Virus record (IMG/VR): IMGVR_UViG_3300043436_002855
Location: 1-34,971 of that record
Length of the DNA: 34,971 bases
DNA from: a virus
Reading direction: 5' to 3' (one strand)
The notes below the pieces were generated by a model. That model was not told the DNA's origin. It was given only the letters and a program-made list of their open reading frames with translations, and ran no database searches. Of this stretch, positions 1 to 14,805 are shown in pieces; the first letter of the stretch is position 1, and each line of letters starts with the position of its first letter. The position numbers and the translations under genes were made by a program.

Positions 1-16
1 GTTAGCATCAATGCTA
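1..16 (-). repeat. Edge of a fourth attC-like palindrome (partial)
   Basis: Bases 1-8 (GTTAGCAT) are the exact inverse of bases 213-220, where the minus-strand unit holding the 56-residue zinc-ribbon gene begins. If the units are integron cassettes, this is the first R box of the attC closing that unit, and the rest lies off the window edge. The stop codon of the gene (14-16) lies a few bases before this box, the usual placement in a cassette. Confidence 0.45.
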
Positions 17-184
17 CGAAAATTCTAAACCACAGACATTGCATCTTAAAAGATTTTTACCAATGTAGCTTCTTTGTTCTCTTGGGTGTTTGCAGTTTTT
101 TCTTTTTTCGCCATATTCAACAGCTTTTTGTTTTGTTTCGTTTGACGTTTCAGAAAATATTTTTTTTGATACTATACTTTTCAT
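14..184 (-). CDS. Small zinc-ribbon-like protein in a cassette-like unit
   Basis: A 56-residue protein if translation starts at the ATG at 184. An upstream ATG at 232 lies inside the palindrome at 213-352, before the presumed crossover point, so I prefer 184. The C-terminal half has a CxxH pair, about 14 residues, then CNVCG followed by an aromatic residue, which is the look of a one-zinc ribbon. The N-terminal half is charged and unremarkable. I do not recognise a family. It sits alone between two palindromes, reads in the same direction as the phage genes and stops next to the next palindrome. Its function is unknown. Confidence 0.5.
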   Translation of the reverse strand: MKSIVSKKIFSETSNETKQKAVEYGEKRKNCKHPREQRSYIGKNLLRCNVCGLEFS

Positions 185-212
185 AAGACTTTCAATTTTA
201 AGAACCGCACTA

Positions 213-352
213 ATGCTAACAGCAATTTGCATCAATGCCTTTGGCTTGGTTATTAATTTAAAGTTTTGTTTTTATTTGTTGTGTTTGGTCATAATCCGAA
301 AGATTAGTTTTTTTTTGCAAAGGCACTAATGCAAGTTGCAAAACGTTGGGAA
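213..352 (-). repeat. attC-like palindrome 3
   Basis: An imperfect palindrome of about 140 bp. The arms at 222-243 and 317-339 match at 19 of 22 positions, and the three differences are transitions that could pair as G:U. Outside the arms are short R-like boxes, ATGCTAAC (213-220) and GTTGGGAA (345-352). These two boxes do not match each other well. Each is instead the exact inverse of a box in a neighbouring palindrome (1-8 and 368-375). That pattern is expected when cassettes recombine inside the R box. The central loop, about 73 bases, is AT-rich and has no gene. Confidence 0.5.
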
Positions 353-367
353 AAAGTCTCCGACTTC

Positions 368-474
368 TTCCCAACCAGCGGAGCTTTCCAAAGGAAGAAG
401 CTCTTTCAGACCTTCTCCCAACTTGACCTTTGCGCAAGCGCAAACGCCTTCGCAAAGCTCCGCTGGTTATAGGG
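368..474 (-). repeat. attC-like palindrome 2
   Basis: A GC-rich block in AT-rich DNA, with perfect 15-bp inverted arms at 373-387 and 454-468 (core CCAGCGGAGC / GCTCCGCTGG). Flanking boxes are TTCCCAAC (368-375) and GTTATAGGG (466-474). The first is the inverse of 345-352. The second is the inverse of 658-666. The interior holds a smaller hairpin (TTTGCG/CGCAAA near 429-444). The stop codon of the zinc-ribbon gene at 467-640 lies inside the 466-474 box. Unlike textbook attC sites, no unpaired spacer separates the outer box from the inner arm here. Confidence 0.5.
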
Positions 475-640
475 TATTTGTCGAATCTGTTAAAACCGCT
501 TTCACACCGTTTTGCATTTTACATTTTTCACACCTTGTTACCTTAATGGTTCTACTATATTTTGTGTCTTTAAAAATCATTGTAACGGTGTTTCGCTCAC
601 CGCAGTAGGTACAATTTACTTTCTGTTTAATTTCAGCCAT
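467..640 (-). CDS. Small CxxC/CxxC zinc-ribbon protein in a cassette-like unit
   Basis: A 57-residue protein from the ATG at 640. The track start upstream is not ATG and would run into the palindrome. Two CxxC knuckles (CTYCG near residue 9 and CEKC near residue 35), separated by about 25 residues containing beta-prone segments, suggest a single zinc ribbon. There is no catalytic domain. The gene begins about 18 bases after the presumed crossover point of palindrome 1, and its stop overlaps the first box of palindrome 2. That is the classic position of a gene inside an integron cassette. It could bind nucleic acid or another protein. Its function is unknown. Confidence 0.6.
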   Translation of the reverse strand: MAEIKQKVNCTYCGERNTVTMIFKDTKYSRTIKVTRCEKCKMQNGVKAVLTDSTNTL

Positions 641-657
641 AATTTTAAATTCAAACG

Positions 658-751
658 CCCTATAACAAAGTCTAAAAAGCAATTGCCACTAAGCGTGTTA
701 TCAAGCAGTATTTGTTAATAGGCAACTGCTTTTAGCCTCGTCCGTTATATT
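658..751 (-). repeat. attC-like palindrome 1
   Basis: The most attC-like of the palindromes. Outer boxes TATAAC (661-666) and GTTATA (744-749) are perfectly inverse. Next come about 5-8 unpaired bases on each side. Inner arms CTAAAAAGCAATTGCC (672-687) and GGCAACTGCTTTTAG (721-735) pair with one extra A and one mismatch, around a 33-base loop. This order (R box, unpaired spacer, L box with an extrahelical base, loop) is the folded architecture of integron attC sites. The bases GTTATAGGG read inward on the minus strand from 666 recur inverted at 466-474. Confidence 0.55.
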
Positions 752-757
752 TTATTA

Positions 758-799
758 AATTCTTACACAAAAGGCGGTTTTTTTTATACAATTCTTACA
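758..799. repeat. Direct repeat AATTCTTACA, two copies
   Basis: Identical 10-mers at 758-767 and 790-799, with an AAAGGCGG and a run of T between. They fill the gap between the terminase-like gene (stop at 803) and the first palindrome. They may mark an insertion boundary or a regulatory site. No function can be read from them. Confidence 0.35.
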
Positions 800-802
800 A
801 AT

Positions 803-1405
803 TTACTTTTTTTCACCCCTTGAACGAACTTCTTGATAATCCATAATTGCAGATTCAATTTCAAACATCGCATCTTCTTTTGCTTTTTCAATTGCTTTAG
901 ATAATATTTGCTTTTGTTTTGTGATTACAATTGATAATTCTTTACGGTCTAACACATATAAACTTGCAATATTCTCATTTTCAGATTCTAAATTCTTAAA
1001 AACAGATTGAATGTTTATTGCAAAAATCTTTTCAACTAGTTCAACTGGCAATAATCTACCCGCTAATTTTTCTAATTGAACTCTTTTTAGTTCAGCTTCA
1101 CGTTCAGCACGGTCAGCTTCTGCCATTTTACGCCTTAAATCTAAATCAGCATATTGTTGTTGAATTGCAGTAAGCGGAATTAAATCTTCACTTTTTGACT
1201 TAACCTTTTTTTCATAACTCAAACCGATTAAATTAGCATTTACTTTCAGTTGCATTTCGGAAATTAAACTCTTATTTATTGGATTATCAGTATCAATTAA
1301 CCCATCTGCACCCCGAATAAGTTTTCCACGTTGCACCCAACTCTTTACCGTGTTAGGCTTTTGTTTATAAGCATCTGTAAAATCTTTAACACTATATTTT
1401 GCCAT
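803..1405 (-). CDS. Probable terminase small subunit
   Basis: A 200-residue protein. The N-terminus (about 1-50) looks like a MerR/Nu1-type winged helix, with the motif NTVKSWVQRGKL used for DNA recognition. A glutamate- and arginine-rich coiled coil follows (about 85-125), then a helical oligomerisation region and a basic C-terminus. This layout fits small terminase subunits, which bind the packaging site and load the large subunit. The large subunit should follow but is not in the window: downstream is palindromic cassette-like DNA and then the window edge. An alternative is another phage DNA-binding protein of the Nu1 fold. Confidence 0.6.
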   Translation of the reverse strand: MAKYSVKDFTDAYKQKPNTVKSWVQRGKLIRGADGLIDTDNPINKSLISEMQLKVNANLIGLSYEKKVKSKSEDLIPLTAIQQQYADLDLRRKMAEADRAEREAELKRVQLEKLAGRLLPVELVEKIFAINIQSVFKNLESENENIASLYVLDRKELSIVITKQKQILSKAIEKAKEDAMFEIESAIMDYQEVRSRGEKK

Positions 1406-1408
1406 TTT

Positions 1409-1624
1409 TTATTTTTTTTGCACCCACAAATATAATAAATCGGGTGCGATTATAGGTGCATACTTTAAAAAAGGGTTATGAGTATGAAAGTCGGGAGTCG
1501 CAACACATTGCGAGGGGTACCGTTTTACTTCACAGTACCTAAACAAAAACAATAATAAGCCGTCAATCACGTTGTTTTTTTTTGATTTGAGCCACGATAA
1601 CAAATAAATAATATATCTACTCAT
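1409..1624 (-). CDS. Doubtful small hydrophobic ORF upstream of the terminase-like gene
   Basis: An open frame of 71 residues from the ATG at 1624, or 80 from 1651. It begins with a hydrophobic stretch (YIIYLLSWL, then GLLLFLF) and ends with an unrelated-looking, His/Pro-rich part. Its stop lies 3 bases before the terminase-like ATG, which suits operon spacing here. Against it, the DNA contains several hairpins and a promoter-like element (1427-1434), and the second half reads unlike neighbouring proteins. It may be a non-coding packaging or leader region. Confidence 0.3.
   Translation of the reverse strand: MSRYIIYLLSWLKSKKNNVIDGLLLFLFRYCEVKRYPSQCVATPDFHTHNPFLKYAPIIAPDLLYLWVQKK
1420..1539 (-). 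other. Cluster of hairpins upstream of the terminase-like gene
   Basis: Three inverted repeats occur in 120 bases: GCACCC (1420-1425) with GGGTGC (1442-1447), CGCAA (1499-1503) with TTGCG (1508-1512), and GGTAC (1516-1520) with GTACC (1535-1539). GGTGC also repeats directly at 1443-1447 and 1455-1459. The block is richer in G+C than its surroundings. Phage packaging sites often lie next to the small terminase gene, so a cos or pac role is possible, but nothing here proves it. Confidence 0.35.
1427..1434 (-). promoter_or_regulatory. -7 promoter element TATATTTG before the terminase-like gene
   Basis: A perfect Bacteroidota TAnnTTTG box on the minus strand, 22 bases before the ATG at 1405. I see no TTG 19 bases upstream, so the promoter is incomplete. 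The box lies in the loop of the GCACCC/GGGTGC inverted repeat, which could act as an operator. Confidence 0.35.
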
Positions 1625-1654
1625 TTGAATTGTTTTTATTCGCTTATACATTAA

Positions 1655-1879
1655 TTAAATTAGTTTGTTTCTTTTTAAGACTTCACTTAGTTCTTTCTTT
1701 GGTCTATTCCTGCAATTAGTACATGTGCATCCATCTAATACAAATCTACCACATCCAACGCCAAACAAATAGTTTTGTTTTATCATTTCATTATACTTAC
1801 CATTATCAATCCATCTTTGCAAAGTGTTTGGATTTGTTATTCGAGTTGTTCCTGAATAGTTTGTTTCTGAATATATCAT
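1655..1879 (-). CDS. Small Cys-rich protein with an excisionase-like helix
   Basis: A 74-residue protein from the ATG at 1879. Residues about 17-29 read NPNTLQRWIDNGK, which resembles the recognition helix and wing turn of MerR, Xis and Nu1-type winged helices and echoes the terminase-like protein downstream. The C-terminal half has four cysteines in the pattern CG...CTCTNC, possibly a zinc site, followed by a basic tail. I infer a small DNA-binding protein. Excisionase, regulator or packaging accessory are all possible. Confidence 0.5.
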   Translation of the reverse strand: MIYSETNYSGTTRITNPNTLQRWIDNGKYNEMIKQNYLFGVGCGRFVLDGCTCTNCRNRPKKELSEVLKRNKLI

Positions 1880-1883
1880 TTGT

Positions 1884-2156
1884 CTATTCTTTTTCCCTTT
1901 CTTTTAGCATTGCATCAGCATACATATAGCTTTTTTTAACTACTATTTGAATATGTCTTTCATCTATACATAAGCCTATTCCTTCAGTAGAGGCTATAAT
2001 TAATTTCATTGCTGAACTAGCAAAATAATCTCTTAGTGTCATTCCGAATTCTTGACCTTCATAAACTGTTCTACATTGCATAGCGCTTTCTCTATGGTCG
2101 ATTATATAACTTGGATAAGCACTCGGGTTTTGTGGTTTTTTTTCTTGATTTTTCAT
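1884..2156 (-). CDS. Conserved-looking small phage protein of unknown function
   Basis: A 90-residue protein. Its features match a common small phage protein type: a short Asn/Pro-rich start, a middle motif GMTLRDYFASSAMK followed by a hydrophobic helix, and an ending with YADAMLKEREK. Proteins of this shape are frequent in the accessory early regions of tailed phages and have no known function. It lies 4 bases after the stop of the upstream gene. Confidence 0.6.
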   Translation of the reverse strand: MKNQEKKPQNPSAYPSYIIDHRESAMQCRTVYEGQEFGMTLRDYFASSAMKLIIASTEGIGLCIDERHIQIVVKKSYMYADAMLKEREKE

Positions 2157-2160
2157 TGTT

Positions 2161-2367
2161 CTAAAATATTAATTCAGTTCTATCTATTCCGTTACCTCTT
2201 ATAACAAAAATAAGTGTGCTATTACGATGTACTTTTGTGTAGTTTAATCCTGCTCTTTGAAGCTTTGATTGTAGTTCGTTTGGTGTTAAGTGTCCTGCTA
2301 AATGATTTTCTATTAAGGTTTTAGCCGTTTGAATTAATTCGTTTTCAGATAATTTAATTTTTGCCAT
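2161..2367 (-). CDS. Small protein of unknown function
   Basis: A 68-residue protein from the ATG at 2367, which directly follows the stop of the membrane protein gene at 2370. A longer reading from 2403 would overlap that gene without need. The sequence is helical at the start (LSENELIQTAKTLIE) and beta-like at the end. I do not recognise it. Confidence 0.55.
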   Translation of the reverse strand: MAKIKLSENELIQTAKTLIENHLAGHLTPNELQSKLQRAGLNYTKVHRNSTLIFVIRGNGIDRTELIF

Positions 2368-2369
2368 GG

Positions 2370-2603
2370 TTAGATTATTGTTTTTATGATTAGTAAACCG
2401 CATACAGCTCCGATACCAGCTCCAAATGCATAGGTTAATTTTTGATTTAATGTTGATATTGCGACTTTTGAAACATTAAAAGCCCAAAGTAAGCTAATTA
2501 AGAAACTTACTATAAAAACTCCAATAATGTATCCTTTAGCTATTAGCATGGTATTTATAGCTACAAGTCCTACTTGAAAGAATGATTGTAAAAATATTTT
2601 CAT
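2370..2603 (-). CDS. Small membrane protein, holin possible
   Basis: A 77-residue protein from the ATG at 2603; the longer reading would need a TTG start. It has two or three hydrophobic segments (roughly residues 8-25, 22-42 and 58-76) and few charges. Size and topology fit a class II holin, which forms inner-membrane holes timed with lysis. However, it lies in an operon of small early-type genes and far from the endolysin, so a membrane protein for exclusion or another role is as likely. A structured 184-base leader precedes it. Confidence 0.5.
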   Translation of the reverse strand: MKIFLQSFFQVGLVAINTMLIAKGYIIGVFIVSFLISLLWAFNVSKVAISTLNQKLTYAFGAGIGAVCGLLIIKTII

Positions 2604-2626
2604 TTGGTAATGATCTTTAAATTTAA

Positions 2627-2728
2627 AAAGCAAGGGCGGAATTTCCCCAAATTTTATGATACGTTACTATCAAAAACCGCCCCGCTTTATTTTGGTTTTA
2701 ATACCTACTTACTTTACTTCGATAGGTA
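2627..2728 (-). other. Structured untranslated leader
   Basis: This stretch (2604-2817) has no gene. On the minus strand it contains TACCTA...TAGGTA (2702-2707 with 2723-2728). It then has a longer stem with GGGCGG (2634-2639) against CCGCCC (2677-2682), extended by GC and AAA/TTT pairs. Inside its loop is TGATA (2657-2661) against TATCA (2668-2672). The nested stems lie just before the membrane protein gene at 2603. This may be a regulatory leader, a weak terminator after 2818, or both. Confidence 0.4.
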
Positions 2729-2817
2729 GTGTGCAAGGTAAATTTATATAAAATCAAATCACGTAATTATTATTAAACTTCAAAACTTGCAAAATCTTTT
2801 TTTATTACTTCATAGGC

Positions 2818-3102
2818 TTATTGTTTAGGTTTTATTGTTTTTGTTTTTAATTTTTTCCAGCCTTCTTTGATTATAACTTTTACTTTATCTGGATGTACTA
2901 ATCTAGATGTTTTACCATTTGTTAGCCATACATAACCGTCTTTTATTCTTTGAATTTCTATTTGCTTACAAACATCTAAAGCTTTTTTTGCCTTTTCAAC
3001 ATATTTTTTAGAATTTGTATGTAATCCAACAGTTCCCATATCAATAGAATCTACTTTATCTTTTTTAATTACTGTTAAAATTGATTTATCTAATTTACTC
3101 AT
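2818..3102 (-). CDS. Small basic protein of unknown function
   Basis: A 94-residue protein, lysine-rich at both ends. The middle (GYVWLTNGKTSRLVHPDKV) looks beta-stranded and is followed by a basic helix ending KTKTIKPKQ. Its start overlaps the upstream stop by 4 bases, indicating coupled translation. It may bind nucleic acid by its charge. No family is recognised. Confidence 0.55.
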   Translation of the reverse strand: MSKLDKSILTVIKKDKVDSIDMGTVGLHTNSKKYVEKAKKALDVCKQIEIQRIKDGYVWLTNGKTSRLVHPDKVKVIIKEGWKKLKTKTIKPKQ

Positions 3103-3449
3103 GATTTCAATTCCGTATGTATGTTAAACTTCATTTCGCTAATAGTTTGAGTGTTTTCTGATTGAATTTGCCATTCTTTTAATAAGTTTGATAGTAAATT
3201 ATTCTTTACTGATTCTTTACTTAATGCTAAAAACGTTTCAAATAATGCTTTTTCTTCGCTTTTAAGATACATCATATAGTTTGAGTAGTATTTATCCAAT
3301 TCATTATCTAAAGTATCTAAAACATCAAAATAACGCTGTTTGTTTTCAAAATACCCAGATTCACGATATTTGATAAAAAGCATTTGACTTTTTTTGTACA
3401 AATACTTCATTCTGGATTTACTTTTGTTGAGTGTTGATTGTGTAGACAT
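3099..3449 (-). CDS. Helical protein of unknown function
   Basis: A 116-residue protein from the ATG at 3449, one base after the upstream stop; the longer reading from 3497 would overlap the membrane gene by 47 bases. It is almost wholly helical, with many Lys, Glu, Tyr and Leu. The central part (YFDVLDTLDNELDKYYSNYM) is coiled-coil-like. No motif for a function is visible. Confidence 0.55.
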   Translation of the reverse strand: MSTQSTLNKSKSRMKYLYKKSQMLFIKYRESGYFENKQRYFDVLDTLDNELDKYYSNYMMYLKSEEKALFETFLALSKESVKNNLLSNLLKEWQIQSENTQTISEMKFNIHTELKS

Positions 3450-3450
3450 A

Positions 3451-3672
3451 TTAAATAAATTTATCACAATATTCATCACATACTTTTTTACACTCACATT
3501 CTCTATTCATTACTTTTTGAAATGATTCTTTTGAACGTTCTACTTTGGTATCTTTTTTTAGTTCCCATTTCCAAAATAAGTAAGCTACAACTAATAAGCA
3601 AATACCAGATAAGAATAAAATATCAGTTAACATACCTATTGAACTGATTAAAAATAAAATTGTTGTTTTCAT
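3451..3672 (-). CDS. Membrane-anchored protein with a Cys-rich tail, first gene of an operon
   Basis: A 73-residue protein. Two hydrophobic stretches (about residues 3-18 and 18-36) end in WKW, followed by a charged cytoplasmic-type segment. The tail carries ECECKKVCDEYC, four cysteines in 12 residues that could bind metal or form disulfides. It is the first gene after the promoter at 3704-3734, with a leader of about 25-30 bases. Its function is unknown. An early membrane role such as superinfection exclusion is one guess. Confidence 0.55.
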   Translation of the reverse strand: MKTTILFLISSIGMLTDILFLSGICLLVVAYLFWKWELKKDTKVERSKESFQKVMNRECECKKVCDEYCDKFI

Positions 3673-3692
3673 ATTTTTTAATTTTTCTATTT

Positions 3693-3734
3693 GTTTGATG
3701 TGGCTAAATTACAAATATTTTTCATTCGTGCAAA
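3693..3734 (-). promoter_or_regulatory. Promoter of the leftmost operon
   Basis: On the minus strand: TTTG (3731-3734), exactly 19 bases, then TAATTTAG (3704-3711), a one-base variant of the Bacteroidota TAnnTTTG box. The 22 bases at 3693-3714, which include the -7 box and about the first ten transcribed bases (GCCACATCAAAC), are identical to 17027-17048. The start site should fall near 3698-3701. Sharing beyond the promoter boxes suggests a common regulator or a conserved initial transcribed sequence. Confidence 0.75.
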
Positions 3735-3783
3735 TTTTTTTGTAAAAAAATTATAAAAAATTTTACATTATATTTCTAAAGCA

Positions 3784-3811
3784 TAAAAAAACCGACCTTT
3801 TACAGTCGGTT
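3784..3811 (-). terminator. Intrinsic terminator of the early operon
   Basis: AACCGAC (3790-3796) pairs perfectly with GTCGGTT (3805-3811) around an 8-base loop. On the minus strand the stem is followed by seven T. It begins a few bases after the stop of the SSB-like gene at 3816 and precedes the next promoter. Confidence 0.85.
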
Positions 3812-3815
3812 AATA

Positions 3816-4205
3816 TTAAAATGGTAAATCATCTTTTTCTTCTTCATATTGGTCAATTGCACTTTCTGATAAAGACTCGCTTTGAATTGGTGAAGGTTCT
3901 CTAAATCCACCCCAGTAAATTGCATTTCCTAAAATCGGTAATGATTTACGTTCATCATCTGTCATTACATCATATTTTTCTTTAGGAATGTCTTGTTTAA
4001 TCAAATGAGTATCTTTTGAATCTGTACGCTTTTCTTTTAGTTCAATTGCTGTTAAGCCTAAATAAGCACCTTTTTCACCTTGATAAATCATGTTTTCTTC
4101 TAATGGAATAATTAAGCATTTTATTTTTTTGCCATCTTTTCCACTCATTTCACGCTCTACGTGTTTTAATTGTTTCAAGTTTAACTTGATTGAAATGTTT
4201 GCCAT
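3816..4205 (-). CDS. Probable single-stranded DNA-binding protein
   Basis: A 129-residue protein and the last gene of the early operon. The body (about 1-105) is beta-rich, consistent with a diverged OB fold. The C-terminus is acidic and ends EEEKDDLPF, closely matching the DDIPF tip by which bacterial SSB proteins recruit replication and repair partners. Phage SSBs coat single strands during replication and annealing. This fits the nearby Sak4-type ATPase and YqaJ-type nuclease. The body is too diverged to confirm by eye. Confidence 0.65.
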   Translation of the reverse strand: MANISIKLNLKQLKHVEREMSGKDGKKIKCLIIPLEENMIYQGEKGAYLGLTAIELKEKRTDSKDTHLIKQDIPKEKYDVMTDDERKSLPILGNAIYWGGFREPSPIQSESLSESAIDQYEEEKDDLPF

Positions 4206-4225
4206 TGTATTATAAATTTAAAGTG

Positions 4226-4444
4226 TTATTTAAATAATTTTATTAATTGTTTCAAATCTTCAATTGTTTTGCAATTTGGAACATCATTCCAGAAACCACA
4301 TGATAATTTAATTTCTACATTATCAATTCCAGAAACTTCAATTATAAATTTTTCTTTTGTTAATGTAAATTCTGTAAAATCAATACCATCTTCTGTATAT
4401 GAAGTGTCAATAAATCCTAATTCTAATAATTCGTTTTGATTCAT
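4226..4444 (-). CDS. Small protein of unknown function
   Basis: A 72-residue protein from the ATG at 4444, which forms an ATGA overlap with the upstream stop; a start at 4477 would overlap by 37 bases. It reads as alternating beta strands with acidic residues (TSYTEDGIDFTEFTL) and ends in a Leu/Lys helix. No family is recognised. Confidence 0.5.
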   Translation of the reverse strand: MNQNELLELGFIDTSYTEDGIDFTEFTLTKEKFIIEVSGIDNVEIKLSCGFWNDVPNCKTIEDLKQLIKLFK

Positions 4445-4635
4445 AAATTTAAAGTTAATTGTTTTGGCTTTTGCCATTCTGCTAATCCTGTGCTAATATC
4501 GATTAAATCTTCAAAAACACAATTAGTAACCCTATGACCACATTTGAAAATATAAGTAGTTCCAGTTACTTTTTTAAGTTCAAATATTTTATCTGAGTTA
4601 GGTTCTGGATATTTAAAGAATTTACCTTTAGTCAT
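4441..4635 (-). CDS. Small protein of unknown function
   Basis: A 64-residue protein with two cysteines and a histidine (FKCGHRVTNC) in a beta-rich middle that could form a half zinc site. It overlaps the HNH-like gene by 8 bases upstream and the next gene by 4 bases, so all three are probably translated together. No family is recognised. Confidence 0.5.
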   Translation of the reverse strand: MTKGKFFKYPEPNSDKIFELKKVTGTTYIFKCGHRVTNCVFEDLIDISTGLAEWQKPKQLTLNL

Positions 4636-5041
4636 TAGTTAATCGATTTAAACTATATCCGTTTTCTTTTGCCCATTCTGGATTTTCTTCTACGTACTTA
4701 TGCCCATCACGGCTTAAAGCAACCCAATAACGAGTGTCTAATAACAATCTACCTATACGCCCTTTCATGTGGTGAACGTCTGTTGTTGGTTTTCCTGTAA
4801 TCGGGCATTTTTGATTTTCTGGTCTTCCTAAAAACTCAATTCTTAAAACTAAATACTTTGCATTTTCTACTTTTCGTTTATCGCTTACTTGCTTAATAGG
4901 TTTGTAAAGTGATTTTAGTTGTAAGTTTGGTTTTCGGTTCTTGTTTTGGCATTTAGGACCACAATACTTAACTAAACTATTGTATTGTTTAAATTCATTA
5001 TTGCAGTCCTTATCTGCACACTTTTTTAGCACAAAGCTCAT
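4628..5041 (-). CDS. NinG/HNH-like recombination nuclease candidate
   Basis: A 137-residue protein. Residues 8-31 hold a zinc ribbon (Cys8, Cys13, Cys27, Cys31), as at the start of NinG-type proteins. The C-terminal part has C79, a DVHH motif (His90, His91) and RDGHK (His114), followed by an ENPEWA helix. This resembles the compact HNH-like fold seen in phage recombination genes. NinG (Rap) acts in phage recombination as a structure-specific nuclease. Its place between an SSB-like gene and a RusA-like gene supports a role in DNA processing. Whether it cleaves is unproven. Confidence 0.6.
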   Translation of the reverse strand: MSFVLKKCADKDCNNEFKQYNSLVKYCGPKCQNKNRKPNLQLKSLYKPIKQVSDKRKVENAKYLVLRIEFLGRPENQKCPITGKPTTDVHHMKGRIGRLLLDTRYWVALSRDGHKYVEENPEWAKENGYSLNRLTND

Positions 5042-5568
5042 TACCCTACTTTTTGAAGTTTAGGCAAATTTAACCCGCTTTCTGGAGATTCTTCAACTAC
5101 TTCTGAAAACAATTCAGGGTCGGCACGTTTATCTTTGAATAAGTATTGAAACACTTCATCATTAATAGCATCTACAATAGCGTCAATTTCTTCTTCAAAT
5201 CCGCTTTCAGAATCTTCTAAATTAATTTTTGAAGTTGAAAGATTTACAATTCCACCATGCAAAGTATTAAAAGTTGCATTAATAACACAAAGTCTATTAT
5301 CTACACTTACCGAAGTAACATCTAATAAAGTTAGATTTTCTGCACTTGGTTCAATGTAAAATTCACGACAAACGTATTCACGTAATTGATTGTAAAGTGA
5401 AACTAAATCAATGTGCGGTTTTCCTGGAATTTTCACATCGTAAATTCTTTTTTCAATGATTTCTTTTTCATCATGTAAATAACTATAACTTGTAACTGCT
5501 GTACCCTTTACTAATTTGAATTTCTTTAATTCGAAATTAGCCTTTTTTGCGTCTTTAATTTTTGACAT
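5041..5568 (-). CDS. Early protein of unknown function
   Basis: A 175-residue protein. A basic N-terminus leads to beta-rich segments with the phrase IPGKPHIDL, then an acidic helical stretch (SESGFEEEIDAIVDAINDEVFQYLF) and a Pro/Glu-rich tail. It overlaps the HNH-like gene in a TAATG junction. I do not recognise the family. Its place among recombination genes suggests DNA metabolism. Confidence 0.5.
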   Translation of the reverse strand: MSKIKDAKKANFELKKFKLVKGTAVTSYSYLHDEKEIIEKRIYDVKIPGKPHIDLVSLYNQLREYVCREFYIEPSAENLTLLDVTSVSVDNRLCVINATFNTLHGGIVNLSTSKINLEDSESGFEEEIDAIVDAINDEVFQYLFKDKRADPELFSEVVEESPESGLNLPKLQKVG

Positions 5569-5586
5569 ATTTATAAATTTAATTGA

Positions 5587-6108
5587 TTACTTAAAAAACA
5601 AATCCATTTGCTCCTGTTGAGGTTTTAACCTACCATAAATACGAATTATCATACAATGTTCCCCACGTTCAAACTTCATTCTAATATCATCGATATACTT
5701 TGTTGTGTCATCGTGTATGCAATTCAAAGTTATGATTTCTTTTCCTTTTATTGATGCGTTATCTAATTGTCTTTTTGTTGGTGTTTTCATTACGTCCAAT
5801 AAAAGTTTTAAAAAAAAGTAAGCTTTGTTATCTAAATCGATTTCTTTTGTATGCCTATATTCTAACTCAATTCTACATTTGTCAAGTTCTGGAATGTATT
5901 TTATATTATCCCTAAGGTAAATTTTACATTCTTGAATTATCTTTGATGTAATGTGGTATGAAGTCCTATCTGCATAAAATAAATTGGCCGTTAAATAAAA
6001 ATCTTGCTTTGTTATCTTTTCACCTTTGGAATTAAATTTTTCTTTTTTATAATTCAATGTCCATTTTGTTGGAGGTGAATGTAATATTATTTCTTTAATC
6101 AGTTCCAT
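5587..6108 (-). CDS. RusA-like Holliday junction resolvase
   Basis: A 173-residue protein. It carries the RusA pattern: a beta-rich N-terminal half, then EIDLDNKAY (Asp91, Asp93, Asn94, Lys95), Asp104 in a helix, and IHDDTTKYID (Asp133, Asp134) followed by beta strands. In RusA, clustered aspartates bind the metals that cut four-way junctions, and the lysine supports catalysis. It is somewhat longer than E. coli RusA (120 residues), mainly at the N-terminus. It would resolve recombination or replication intermediates before packaging. Confidence 0.75.
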   Translation of the reverse strand: MELIKEIILHSPPTKWTLNYKKEKFNSKGEKITKQDFYLTANLFYADRTSYHITSKIIQECKIYLRDNIKYIPELDKCRIELEYRHTKEIDLDNKAYFFLKLLLDVMKTPTKRQLDNASIKGKEIITLNCIHDDTTKYIDDIRMKFERGEHCMIIRIYGRLKPQQEQMDLFFK

Positions 6109-6337
6109 TTTGTAAAGTGTTTTTTAGTTCTTGCAAAGCATCATTACATTGATTTTTAGAGTTAAATTTCCATTTTAAAACTTCCTCATTTTTTAAAACA
6201 AAATAGATAGTGTTTGACTCTTTAAAATTATTAAAAAATACTTTTCCAAAAACTTCAATGTCAATTCCAAAAAACTGCACTTCACTAACTTTTATTGATG
6301 GATGTATTATCCATTCCGATATAAAAAATTTATCCAT
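6095..6337 (-). CDS. Small protein of unknown function
   Basis: An 80-residue protein, aromatic and beta-rich at the start, with a helix at the end (QCNDALQELKNTLQ). It overlaps the RusA-like gene by 14 bases and the upstream HTH gene by 8, so it is part of a tightly coupled run. No motif is recognised. Confidence 0.5.
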   Translation of the reverse strand: MDKFFISEWIIHPSIKVSEVQFFGIDIEVFGKVFFNNFKESNTIYFVLKNEEVLKWKFNSKNQCNDALQELKNTLQNGTD

Positions 6338-6599
6338 AGTTATTAATTTTAGATTCTAATGTTATTTCTGAAAATTCAAAATAAGGTTTTCGTTCTTTTT
6401 TTACAATTGGAATAGTTATATACAAATTGAAAATTTTATAAATCGTTTCAAATAAGTAAAAGTTTAAATTTTTGCGATTTTTAGCTTTTTTAATTAAATC
6501 TGGTTTAATTCCAAAACTATCAATTTTAATATAAATAGTTGTTTTTGAAAGTCCAGTTATATTAGAAATATCTTTTGCCGTATAATATTTATTTTCCAT
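6330..6599 (-). CDS. Small helix-turn-helix protein
   Basis: An 89-residue protein. Residues about 5-27 (YTAKDISNITGLSKTTIYIKI) form a clear helix-turn-helix of the excisionase/MerR-like HTH_17 kind. The next basic segment would contact DNA. The C-terminal half is beta-like, with no enzyme motif. It is probably a regulator or a replication accessory. It overlaps both neighbours by about 10 bases. Confidence 0.6.
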   Translation of the reverse strand: MENKYYTAKDISNITGLSKTTIYIKIDSFGIKPDLIKKAKNRKNLNFYLFETIYKIFNLYITIPIVKKERKPYFEFSEITLESKINNYG

Positions 6600-6783
6600 T
6601 TTCCAACTGTTTTAATCGATTATAATAAAATTGATAAGTTTTAACAGCCGATTCAGATATTTCTTTTTCAGTAATAGACTTTTCAAATGTTTTTATTTTT
6701 CCATTGTTATCAACTTCAATAAACCATTTGCCTTTTTTATTTACCGGATAAACTTTAATTCCAGATGCTAAACAAAAACTCAT
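6589..6783 (-). CDS. Small protein of unknown function
   Basis: A 64-residue protein from the ATG at 6783, which follows the upstream stop (6788) by four bases and has AAAG just before it. Starting at 6846 would overlap the coiled-coil gene by 59 bases. Its beta-rich start (KWFIEVDNNGKIKTF) and helical end (KTYQFYYNRLKQLE) resemble a small beta-beta-alpha arrangement, as in integrase arm-binding domains, but this is only a resemblance. Confidence 0.5.
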   Translation of the reverse strand: MSFCLASGIKVYPVNKKGKWFIEVDNNGKIKTFEKSITEKEISESAVKTYQFYYNRLKQLENGK

Positions 6784-6787
6784 TTCT

Positions 6788-7231
6788 TTACTTATTGTTG
6801 GAACTGAATTCAAGTTGTGCATTGAGGCTTTTGATTTCGCTTTCATATTTGGCTTTTAAATTACTTATTTCAAGTTTTAAATGATATAATTCATTTTCTA
6901 ACTTCTGACTTCTTTTAACCTCATTAGAATACTCAGCAACTGAACCCTTAGCAATAGTTTGAATTGTACTGCAATAACTTTGAATTCTAAACAAAGCCAT
7001 AATAATTTCTAAAAATTGTGCCTTATTTGACTCTTTTGCCATTGAGTGCCATTCATTAACCTTTTCAGAAATAAATATCAAATCTGTTTCATTTTTATTT
7101 TCTAAAATCCAATGAGCCGTATCGGCATAATCAAAACGTTTTCTTTGCTGTTCCAAAAACTTTGAAACTAATTTTATTTGATTTTGCTCTATTTGGTGAT
7201 TAGCCCTTTTTTTTTCTTCTAAACTATCCAT
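6788..7231 (-). CDS. Coiled-coil early protein
   Basis: A 147-residue protein, helical throughout. The last 50 residues form a regular coiled coil (LENELYHLKLEISNLKAKYESEIK). The N-terminus is rich in Glu, Lys and Gln. It follows the RecA/DnaB-type ATPase gene by 11 bases, so a replication accessory role is plausible. No specific family is recognised. Confidence 0.5.
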   Translation of the reverse strand: MDSLEEKKRANHQIEQNQIKLVSKFLEQQRKRFDYADTAHWILENKNETDLIFISEKVNEWHSMAKESNKAQFLEIIMALFRIQSYCSTIQTIAKGSVAEYSNEVKRSQKLENELYHLKLEISNLKAKYESEIKSLNAQLEFSSNNK

Positions 7232-7242
7232 AAGTCAATATT

Positions 7243-8193
7243 TTAAAATGGAACCTCATCTTCATTTTCATCTAATTTTTTTGCATTTGGCTCTAAATAT
7301 TCTTTTGCAGCATAAACACGATTATTATTTTCGTTTATGTGATAAAAATTATATTTTACCAAATCCAAATACAATTCCGTCATTCCTTGCTTTGCTACTG
7401 ATTTTGGTTTTGCTTTTTTAATATAAACTTCAGTAGTATTGCTTGAACCCTCAGGACGATGCACTACAATAATGTTTTTTCCATTATTCCACCATTCGGA
7501 CCCCCCTTTTAAATCATCTGGACCAGGAACTTTACGTTCACCTTTTGATGTTTTCTCATTTCCTAAACCTTTTGGATGTATAACCGTATGTAGATGCATT
7601 TTGTATTTTTCTGCAATCATATTTCGATACGATAAAACATCTTCTAAATATTGATCATCCCTCATACTTCTATCATGTTTTAAATCTTTCCAACTATCAA
7701 TGGTCATTGTTTGAATACCTCCGATAACTTCACTTGAATAGTTAATCCCAAAATCCCAAAACTCGTAAGGGGTTATTTTAGCTTTCTCATCTGTTTTGTG
7801 AAGTATAAAAAAATGATTTAAAACCCAGTCTAAATTTTTTGAAACTTCTAATTCTGTGATATAATTTGACTTGTAACGCTTATCAAATGTTTTTCCAGTC
7901 TTTTTATGAATCAGCAAAGAAATTATATCTTCTTGCGTTCCAACATCCGGAACATACAATAAATGTTTCCAGCCATAAAACAAAGAAGTATTTAAAAGCA
8001 ATTCAATTAAAAGTTCAGTTTTACCACTTTGAGGATAACCCGTCCAATCGCTAACTCCTGGCAAACTCATTGTATAAAATTCATGTAAGTTTGGAAAACC
8101 TAAATACTTGCCTCTTAAAGCTCCTTGCTCTCTATACTTCATTATGCTGTCATGGCTTGTAGAAGCTTTTAATATTTCAAATCCTTTTAGCAT
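7243..8193 (-). CDS. RecA/DnaB-fold ATPase, probable replicative helicase or loader
   Basis: A 316-residue protein. Walker A is GYPQSGKT (52-59) and Walker B is TMTID (162-166), with DVGTQEDI between them, typical of the DnaB/RecA branch of ATPases. A later region (KGGSEWWNNGKNIIVVHRPEG) fits the sensor and arm segments of Twinkle/DnaB-like proteins. The C-terminus is acidic and ends in EDEVPF, like an SSB tail. It lies between a replication-initiator-like gene and a coiled-coil gene, supporting a role in moving or loading the phage fork. It is shorter than full DnaB (about 450 residues) and lacks the N-terminal primase-binding domain. Confidence 0.7.
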   Translation of the reverse strand: MLKGFEILKASTSHDSIMKYREQGALRGKYLGFPNLHEFYTMSLPGVSDWTGYPQSGKTELLIELLLNTSLFYGWKHLLYVPDVGTQEDIISLLIHKKTGKTFDKRYKSNYITELEVSKNLDWVLNHFFILHKTDEKAKITPYEFWDFGINYSSEVIGGIQTMTIDSWKDLKHDRSMRDDQYLEDVLSYRNMIAEKYKMHLHTVIHPKGLGNEKTSKGERKVPGPDDLKGGSEWWNNGKNIIVVHRPEGSSNTTEVYIKKAKPKSVAKQGMTELYLDLVKYNFYHINENNNRVYAAKEYLEPNAKKLDENEDEVPF

Positions 8194-8200
8194 AATTTAT

Positions 8201-8851
8201 TTAGTGATTAGTGAAACCGCCTTTTTTTCCTTCAAAGTTTTTTAATAAAACTAATTTATTGTCATTTTTTGCTCTTTTCATCCAGTTTCTTAAAGTAGCT
8301 AACCAACCTCTATTATTCCTTTTTTTATTTTGAGAATCAGACCATAATAAAACATCCTCAATATAAAATTTTAAATCTACACCGTAATAATCTTTTTTGA
8401 ATTTTTCATCTTTTGATAATTCTATTTTTAAATAATCATAACTATTCCAAATTGAATCAGAAAAAAGAATTTGTTTCTTATCTTCTATATTATTAGTTAT
8501 TATATTATTGGGTGCGGTTTTAGTACTACCTACTTGTTCTAAAATAGTACTACCCCAGTACGAATTTAGTACTACCAGTTCATTTTGAAAGTATTTACAA
8601 AATTGAATGTTATTTACAACAAAATTTTCTTTTAAAATAAGTTCTTTTTCAATTAAAGAATGTAGTGTTTTAATAGTAGTAGTTCTACTTGCTCCAGTTG
8701 CATCTGAAAGATATTTAATACTACCATCAAATTTACCTTGACCATCTTTTGAAAATCCGTAAATAATAGCAAATACTAATAATTCATTTCCTTTCAATTG
8801 TAATTCATTAATCATCCAACCTTGAATTACATAATAGCTACTACTTTTCAT
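8201..8851 (-). CDS. Replication initiator-like winged-helix protein
   Basis: A 216-residue protein from the ATG at 8851; the longer reading would overlap the upstream gene by 50 bases. The N-terminal domain (about 1-75) is a winged helix like those of phage O/DnaD-type proteins: YVIQGWMINELQLKGNELLVFAII, then SIKYLSDATGASRTTTIKTLHSL. The C-terminal third has a basic WLATLRNWMKRAK segment, as seen where such proteins bind DNA. Members mark the origin and bring the helicase. The ATPase gene 8 bases downstream would be its partner. Confidence 0.65.
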   Translation of the reverse strand: MKSSSYYVIQGWMINELQLKGNELLVFAIIYGFSKDGQGKFDGSIKYLSDATGASRTTTIKTLHSLIEKELILKENFVVNNIQFCKYFQNELVVLNSYWGSTILEQVGSTKTAPNNIITNNIEDKKQILFSDSIWNSYDYLKIELSKDEKFKKDYYGVDLKFYIEDVLLWSDSQNKKRNNRGWLATLRNWMKRAKNDNKLVLLKNFEGKKGGFTNH

Positions 8852-9056
8852 TGTTTCTGATTTTAGATTGAACAAAAAGCATAGTGCCAATAAAAGAATA
8901 AAATTGATTTTTATCTAAATCAATGTAATTTGCATCAATAAAAACATTTTCAAAATCAAAAGATAAAATTGAAATTCTTACTTTTTCATTTTCAAGTTGT
9001 GTTACTTCAATTGTAGAGTAACCATTTTCAGTTTTGTTTGTAATAGAATGTACCAT
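8841..9056 (-). CDS. Small protein downstream of a structured RNA
   Basis: A 71-residue protein. It is beta-rich in the first half (TIEVTQLENEKVRISILSFDFENVF), with no recognised motif. It is the first gene after the pseudoknot-capable leader at 9075-9170, so its translation may be controlled by that RNA. It overlaps the initiator gene by 11 bases. Confidence 0.5.
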   Translation of the reverse strand: MVHSITNKTENGYSTIEVTQLENEKVRISILSFDFENVFIDANYIDLDKNQFYSFIGTMLFVQSKIRNNEK

Positions 9057-13745: not shown

Positions 13746-14805
13746 TTGTTTTCTTTTTTGAGTTTAATAATTCAATTGCTTTTGCAAAGTTTGTTTCTTC
13801 TTTTTCATCAATAATTCGATTAATGTTGTTGACTTCATCACTCGATAATTTTGATTTGTCGCACTTTTCAAACAATTCAATCAAACTATCTAAAAGCAAT
13901 GTTTCATTTTCTGAATCTGCATTATTGATACTATCGTAAGCTTTAGCACTTTCAGCACAAATAACAAAATGATTTTTCAAGTCTTCATTATCTCTGGCTT
14001 GCTTTGGGATTGATTTCCATAGATCAGTTAAAGCTTCCGTTCCTTTTTCGCAAATTAGCAAAGCCTCTGATTTGTATTTTTCTATATCTGGCGTTTGCTT
14101 TTCTCCTTTGCTTAACCATTCACGAACCTTTTTACCTGTTTCAATTCCTAAATAGTTTTGACCATTTCCAAATGAATCTTTTAAGAAACTTGGCAATTTT
14201 AAGAACTTTTGATTTTTACCTTCATTTACCATAAGCATTGAAGCTGTCATTTCAAACATAAAATTCTTTTCGCAAATTGGTTGTATTCCTAAAGATACTG
14301 GCTTTGTTGGGTCTTTAAAATCTGTTTTTTCTCTGGCACGAATACAACATATAATATCCATATTTGACTGCAAAAGAACATTCATAAATTGTTTATGCTG
14401 CCTTTTTGCTTCAATCCAATTTGCAACTTTTCGAGGCGTTCCATCGGCTTTTGGTGCGTTTGCAATATCATCGCATCCGCCTTCACCTTCCCATTCGTGA
14501 GTTACAGAATCAATAACCAATACTTTTACGCCTGCATCTTGAAATTCTCTAATTGCTTGTGCATATCTTGTTGGACTGAAAGGCGGATACAAATCACCTA
14601 TCATAAATTGACCGTCTAAAATATCAGCATACAAAGAACCTCTTTTGTTTTCAGTATCTAAAAATCCAATTTCAGATGCTTTATCTACCATACCACGTGC
14701 AATAAGTAAAGCAGTATAAGTTTTCCCACTTCCAGAAATTCCAGCAATTCCGATAACCGCTTTTGATTGTCCGCTTTGAACTGCTCTAATGTTTAATACA
14801 CTCAT
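13738..14805 (-). CDS. Sak4-type RecA-fold ATPase (AAA_24)
   Basis: A 355-residue protein. It has Walker A GISGSGKT (22-29), DTENKRGS after it, and Walker B VLVID (95-99) followed by SVTHEWEG. The later KRQHKQFMNVLLQ and CIRAREK segments match the phage AAA_24/Sak4 group. Such proteins anneal or exchange single strands and replace RecA or Red-beta in some phages. The core ends near residue 235 and a helical tail follows. With the YqaJ-like nuclease, SSB-like protein and RusA-like resolvase it forms a full recombination set. Confidence 0.75.
   Translation of the reverse strand: MSVLNIRAVQSGQSKAVIGIAGISGSGKTYTALLIARGMVDKASEIGFLDTENKRGSLYADILDGQFMIGDLYPPFSPTRYAQAIREFQDAGVKVLVIDSVTHEWEGEGGCDDIANAPKADGTPRKVANWIEAKRQHKQFMNVLLQSNMDIICCIRAREKTDFKDPTKPVSLGIQPICEKNFMFEMTASMLMVNEGKNQKFLKLPSFLKDSFGNGQNYLGIETGKKVREWLSKGEKQTPDIEKYKSEALLICEKGTEALTDLWKSIPKQARDNEDLKNHFVICAESAKAYDSINNADSENETLLLDSLIELFEKCDKSKLSSDEVNNINRIIDEKEETNFAKAIELLNSKKKTNE

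Follow-up and report, generated by a model that had tools for sequence, protein, structure and literature searches.

Chromosomal integrons of the sedentary type, such as those of Vibrio and Treponema, comprise a recombinase, an attI site, and a cassette array whose attC sites fold and carry R boxes. The start of each unit is complementary to its own R'' box, the crossover takes place at the GTT of R', and a new unit is placed at the leading end. The recombinase of the Treponema integron is read in the same direction as the cassettes. Integrons are regarded as nearly absent from the Bacteroidota. One complete integron within Bacteroidetes, that of Salinibacter ruber, was named by IntegronFinder 2 (PMC9024848). 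Qi et al. 2023 (PMC9892861) found clusters of attC sites that lack an integrase (CALINs) in virulent phages, a Polaribacter phage among them, and showed that IntI1 is able to use them; their main text makes no mention of Flavobacterium. The Muminvirus and Lillamyvirus phages of Baltic Flavobacterium were described by Nilsson et al. 2020 (PMC7077304), who reported their accessory regions and a pan-genome of 142 genes, 26 of them core, without a cassette explanation; integrons, cassettes, and palindromes are unmentioned there. The system described here has the three components of sedentary integrons, with an attI-like site and folded, R-boxed attC-like sites, as well as their complementary unit starts and crossover point, and a new unit was seen at the leading end. 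Like the phages of Qi et al., its phages are lytic, lack an integrase, and bear small genes and DNA methyltransferases bordered by attC sites, and the same sites as ours were found in the Muminvirus and Lillamyvirus phages.

The window, i.e., the whole stretch of DNA analyzed, is a linear viral contig of 34,971 bases. Its gene order is colinear with that of the Ficleduovirus phages of Flavobacterium columnare, and most of its structural and replication genes are 35–82% identical to those of phage V156 (55–82% for the conserved ones). Positions 1–751 were identified as a three-cassette array of integron type without an integrase, located inside a Flavobacterium myophage genome between terS and, on an overlapping contig, terL. 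The first complete gene to the right of the array is the counterpart of gene 1 of the Ficleduovirus phages, in which it is followed by two small genes and then terL; it was named terS-like because of this position. A first query of viral contigs with terS alone was unsuccessful, and relatives were obtained with an alignment query, while a terL query matched Ficleduovirus isolates only. In the related contig L005, the space separating terS from terL is taken up by a ten-site array flanked on either side by phage genes; the cargo of this array, which differs from that of the window, includes two DNA methyltransferases and an ASCH-domain protein. No match to the Flavobacterium recombinase described below was detected in the window (a fragment), the L005 contig, or positions 1–9000 of phage mumin6-1. 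The window, L005, and mumin6-1 contain 3, 10, and 12 attC sites, respectively, so that both properties of a CALIN, at least 2 attC sites and no nearby integrase, were fulfilled. A direct search of 1–760 against plasmids gave no match, and an Rfam scan of 1–3000 gave nothing above gathering scores and no attC hit. The preliminary description, made from the DNA letters alone, had proposed integron-type cassettes in a phage genome without an integrase, which was borne out; it also called them unusual, a point that gives way to the earlier report of such clusters in virulent phages (PMC9892861).

Table 1. Features of the array and its border with the phage backbone.
Feature	Positions	Strand	Remarks
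Start box GTTAGCAT of cassette C, cassette junction	1–8	+	Contig terminus exactly here
Cassette C gene, 54 aa	14–178	-	No Pfam match
attC-like site 3, own site of cassette C	213–352	+	R'' ATGCTAAC at 213–220, R' GTTGGGAA at 345–352
Cassette B, about 121 nt	345–465	+	Nearly all attC site, without plausible ORF
attC-like site 2, short, GC-rich, divergent	368–474	+	22-nt arms, 91% complementary; marginal model score
Cassette A gene, 57 aa	467–640	-	CxxC...CxxC, zinc-ribbon-like by eye
attC-like site 1, belonging to cassette A; variant with a short loop	658–751	+	E = 3e-6; final site before phage backbone
Array/backbone boundary	752–802	.	Phage backbone, conserved; L005 has it in common as far as about 760–770
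terS-like gene	803–1405	-	phrog_5193; 56–59% identical to Ficleduovirus gene 1, 75% to L005

The three long palindromes noted at the outset (213–352, 368–474, and 658–751) were all present, and they belong to cassettes C (about 1–344), B (about 345–465), and A (about 466–743), respectively. Both the crossover data and the host arrays place the attC sites on the plus strand with the genes opposite, and the cassettes were therefore delimited with attC on that strand. The units are consecutive as had been claimed, and their polarity required a correction, since the attC sites run opposite to the genes. An assignment in which the gene strand equals the attC top strand was ruled out by the unit junctions and the chromosomal arrays. 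Homologues of the cassette C gene occur in six other viral contigs with 74–100% identity and differing neighbours, and site 3 shares 91% identity across 131 nt with a site of the cultured phage snusmum6-1. The protein of cassette A exhibited no Pfam match and no relatives in the collections searched. Cassette B has virtually no content beyond its site, and is possibly a cassette that has decayed or is "empty".

The opening bases of each unit recur as an exact inverse in the box that closes it, and the pairs reported in the preliminary description were reproduced: 658–666 with 466–474 (9 of 9), 368–375 with 345–352 (8 of 8), and 213–220 with 1–8 (8 of 8). Sites of the form AAC-stem-GTT scored 32 (218–347), 30 (373–468), and 28 (664–746); in 300 dinucleotide-preserving shuffles of 1–760, a score of at least 28 arose 0.03 times per shuffle on average, and three such sites never arose together. 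Across seven arrays, 28 of 33 units had a box run of at least 8 bases in their own pair. Such runs were seen in 30 of the 1567 pairs that were not a unit's own, and in 0 of the 40 formed by two boxes of a single palindrome. The first of these figures is slightly flattered, because a few short sites of array L008 were found with the help of the boxes. The poorer match of two boxes inside one palindrome, remarked on for the window, hence turned out to be a general rule. A unit opens with GTTANNNNNN (at times GTTG) and closes with the same bases in exact reverse complement, its first 8–10 bases mirroring its own closing box, which is the expected trace of a cassette whose circular form closes across the box. 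This match is longer than the approximately 7 bases of integrons. The caution that not all boxes fit GTTRRRY was justified: nearly every site has A or G directly after GTT, and the bases beyond are variable. The R' of the Flavobacterium type is thus GTTR and departs from the GTTRRRY consensus of integrons.

The sites constitute a structured family of palindromes of approximately 130 nt, in which structure is conserved rather than sequence. An alignment of 39 sites, none from the window, gave a common fold of 24 pairs, of which 17 show compensatory double changes. This indicates that the integron property of an imperfect palindrome with R'' and R' boxes, conserved in structure over sequence, is met. 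A covariance model built here from these 39 non-window sites detected 211–353 with E = 5e-17 and, without filters, 657–752 with 3e-6, whereas 413–474 was marginal (0.015); the suggested check by covariance model was accordingly passed by the palindromes at 213–352 and 658–751, and only marginally by that at 368–474. In the consensus fold, 4 nt are left unpaired on one of the two arms but not on the other, and there is a mismatch that is mostly C-A; the two strands therefore differ. A bulge conserved on one side, where the R and L arms meet, and a family-specific centre are unlike integrons. Searches with a pattern of the central motif gave many chance matches, which were sorted by BLAST and the box rule. 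Arrays of the same kind were recognized in further viral contigs and in the cultured phages mumin, lillamy, sniff, mymlan, and 11b, with the caveat that some of the viral loci compared may be misclassified host contigs. Two L005 sites (1486–1621 and 2687–2822) share 96% identity across 124 nt, a resemblance of the kind seen within species-typical attC families. The Polaribacter phage of Qi et al. gave a single weak hit with the present model (E = 1.6e-4). As this sole site of phage P12002L lies at 14.5 kb (14497–14631), the published attC cluster probably represents another subtype. The P12002L genome (NC_028924, 1–1500) likewise starts with terS and small genes.

Near-identical cultured virulent phages differ by whole units. 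Phage sniff9-2 cleanly lacks one 439-nt unit of sniff9-1, and an identical 439-nt unit occupies one position in lillamy9-6 and another, at the leading end of the array, in lillamy9-7, of which the remainder and flanks are 99.9–100% identical. Similarly, mumin6-3 cleanly lacks 506 nt of mumin6-1. All unit junctions fall in the (A)TAAC box, which corresponds to G^TT when the other strand is read. The isolate comparisons, which represent natural variation and not an assay, hence agree with cassettes being excised and inserted precisely at R', as in integrons. These junctions bear directly on the reading of the palindromes as ordinary terminators or RNA hairpins between phage genes, whose content would vary by ordinary mosaicism. 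Hairpins between small genes are common, phages are mosaic, and attC sites can be weak terminators (PMC9892861); however, this reading accounts neither for the own-unit box rule nor for a consensus that requires no T-runs, the junctions lie exactly at the boxes, one unit was relocated elsewhere, and the same sites adjoin a recombinase in chromosomes. It is thus very improbable, and as a full explanation it is already refuted by the unit moves.

The junction at the window's own end is of the same nature. Past the box of the cassette C gene ending in GATGCTAAC, three different sequences were found among four viral contigs. Contig L295 matches the window exactly over 127 nt, as far as position 1, and then continues into a 66-aa ORF and terL, the latter 90% identical to the L005 terL. 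With this arrangement, three cassettes therefore make up the complete array, and the contig stops exactly at a crossover point. The exact 127-nt overlap resembles that of neighbouring contigs of one assembly graph, from which a branch at this point in the sample was inferred. The array had been placed at the edge of the phage genome, which does not hold: only the contig terminates there, and L005 and L295 place the array internally. Conservation of the region as one block in related phages would have refuted the idea of exchangeable cassettes. Exchangeable units were instead favoured by the terS–terL slot of related loci, which is filled with other cassettes (L005), as well as by the different neighbours of the window's cassette gene past the same box (L291–L295) and by the whole-unit differences of the cultured relatives.

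A pattern derived from one site subtype matched the genome of a Flavobacterium (L238, i.e., G001) with 34 sites. Behind several of the best-scoring integrase-like recombinases, which are about 347 or about 590 aa long, there are same-direction arrays of alternating genes and attC sites, and the recombinase itself reads in the direction of the cassettes, as in Treponema; for several other recombinase genes, the contig border lies just behind the gene. The first cassette starts 47–103 nt past the stop codon of the recombinase. In four genomes (G027, G091, G183, and G001), 9–10 bases of this cassette's start box agree with the first attC. In a fifth, G099, the start box GTTAGCGGT was read by eye at the expected place. 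An attI-like site beside the recombinase, where the first cassette begins, is thus part of the layout, as in integrons. The bases preceding GTT are alike, reading ATATAxACxA in most genomes, and this also holds for phage L005, where TATATTTACGA directly precedes GTTA. In the complete chromosome G047 (L287/L288, G047:C1:204000-243999), the recombinase is followed by more than 30 attC-like sites over a stretch of about 37 kb, representing a large chromosomal integron-like array of unidentified cargo. Sites were detected in 72 of the 101 sampled Flavobacterium genomes and in 16 of 41 genomes of a family-wide draw. Where a strong integrase-like recombinase was present (56 genomes), 40 genomes had at least 4 sites; where it was absent (45 genomes), 9 did (p = 3e-7). 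A strong recombinase denotes a TIGR02249 match at 1e-25, a threshold picked after two clusters of E-values had been seen; at E ≤ 0.001 this family is useless, as nearly every genome and all controls match. In some loci (L263:3376-5103, G083:C13, and others), a recombinase of approximately 575–610 aa with a long unassigned N-terminal part replaces the 347-aa type. The array contig of Flavobacterium sp. ZT3R18 (L238:2216-3831) ends with a reverse-transcriptase ORF (PF00078) of the group II intron type, the contig end lying inside an apparent attC box, AACCGCTAAT; it is possibly an attC-targeting intron, and an Rfam scan of L238 gave nothing above gathering scores and no intron hit.

This chromosomal system works like an integron, but its recombinase fails the IntI family test. 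The Flavobacterium enzyme scored 202–219 bits against TIGR02249 (cut-off 265) with a match split into 2–180 and 239–315, and in the alignment to IntI4 (2a3v) the IntI insertion is skipped; the enzyme hence does not qualify as an IntI with its specific insertion. All four proteins of the 347-aa type that were tested passed NF040815 ("site-specific tyrosine recombinase/integron integrase"), and the 575-aa one did not. Unlike in integrons, the nearest NCBIfam family is archaeal XerA. A survey of tyrosine recombinases described the insertion as specific to the integron group, incompletely conserved there, and essential for integron function (PMC8138268), a statement that makes the Flavobacterium enzymes interesting rather than excluded. 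It is possible, though unlikely, that the mover of the array is not the Flavobacterium integron recombinase but XerC/XerD, the IntI of another bacterium, a recombinase brought in by a co-infecting temperate phage, or a similar enzyme. The attC sites of virulent phages, a Polaribacter phage among them, can serve as substrates of IntI1 (PMC9892861), the nearest relatives of the recombinase in the phage collection are integrases of temperate Cellulophaga phages (40% identical), and 9 of the 49 site-rich genomes have no strong recombinase match. Nevertheless, recombinase, attI-like site, and array co-occur in a fixed layout in Flavobacterium, and no IntI above the curated TIGR02249 cut-off was found in 199 Flavobacterium genomes.

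Phage and host arrays are distinguished by the orientation of their genes. For 57 of 59 units of bacterial arrays, the longest ORF is on the strand opposite to that of the model, whereas for 39 of 41 units of viral arrays it is on the model strand. Relative to attC, the gene is therefore inverted in phages (39:2) compared with hosts (2:57). As a cassette has its gene and its attC in a fixed mutual orientation, the phage and bacterial pools appear largely separate; this suggests that phages draw on a cassette pool of their own, largely apart from the chromosomal one. The phage genes are thus read from terS to terL, along phage transcription and towards the attI-like site. The orientation also allows phage and bacterial cassettes to be distinguished by sequence alone. 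It is pertinent to whether 1–760 could be the bacterial flank of an integrated prophage or part of a chimeric contig. The position of the array at a contig end and the presence of such arrays in Flavobacterium chromosomes would agree with this; the L005 array is nevertheless surrounded by phage genes, L295 runs from the window end into terL, the window genes have the phage orientation, the relatives are virulent, and the window has no integrase, leaving hardly any room for such an origin. The host-flank, chimera, and terminator readings were all rejected on the L005 and L295 context, the orientation, the box rule, and the unit moves.

The locus is best explained as a mobile cassette array of a flavobacterial integron system, in which a phage of virulent type keeps attC-like sites and an attI-like site adjacent to terL but no integrase. 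We assign this reading a probability of roughly 85%. No recombination was observed directly and the phage's host is unidentified; these points, the poor score of site 2, and a recombinase without the insertion called essential in IntI (PMC8138268) count against it. Judged from sequence alone, the units are delimited by boxes, the palindromes conserve structure, units are lost and relocated at the boxes, and the chromosomal layout is one of recombinase, attI-like site, and array. By inference, the units would leave the array in circular form and be put back by a tyrosine recombinase whose substrate is the folded single strand. This enzyme may be the integron recombinase of the host, supplied in trans during infection. 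New units would preferentially enter at the attI-like site beside terL, and the cassette genes (DNA methyltransferases, ASCH, and other small proteins) may aid the phages against host defences. A more specific proposal, to which we give only slightly better than even odds, is a split integron: virulent phages keep their own attI-like site and a dedicated pool of inverted-gene cassettes, and borrow an insertion-free host recombinase of a new type, with which their accessory genes would be rearranged in the course of the lytic cycle.

A search of the open-access literature, which lacks most subscription papers, turned up no earlier account of integrons in Flavobacterium or of these sites. Flavobacterium phages, host integrons, an attI-like site in virulent phages, unit moves between isolates, and gene inversion were not found in the accessible text of PMC9892861. 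Phage CALINs were previously known, and we provisionally regard as new the Flavobacterium integrons, the integrase-less phage arrays with an attI-like site, and the inversion of cassette genes between phage and host. In place of the supposed near absence of integrons from Bacteroidota, Flavobacterium has these sites in 72 of 101 genomes and complete layouts behind a recombinase below the cut-off. Recombination of folded attC sites without the insertion would bear on the origin of IntI from Xer. Lytic Flavobacterium phages seem to trade single genes via the cassette-shuffling machine of their host, which provides a concrete, testable mechanism for single-gene exchange in lytic phage genomes and would account for part of the large accessory genome of the cultured Muminvirus phages.
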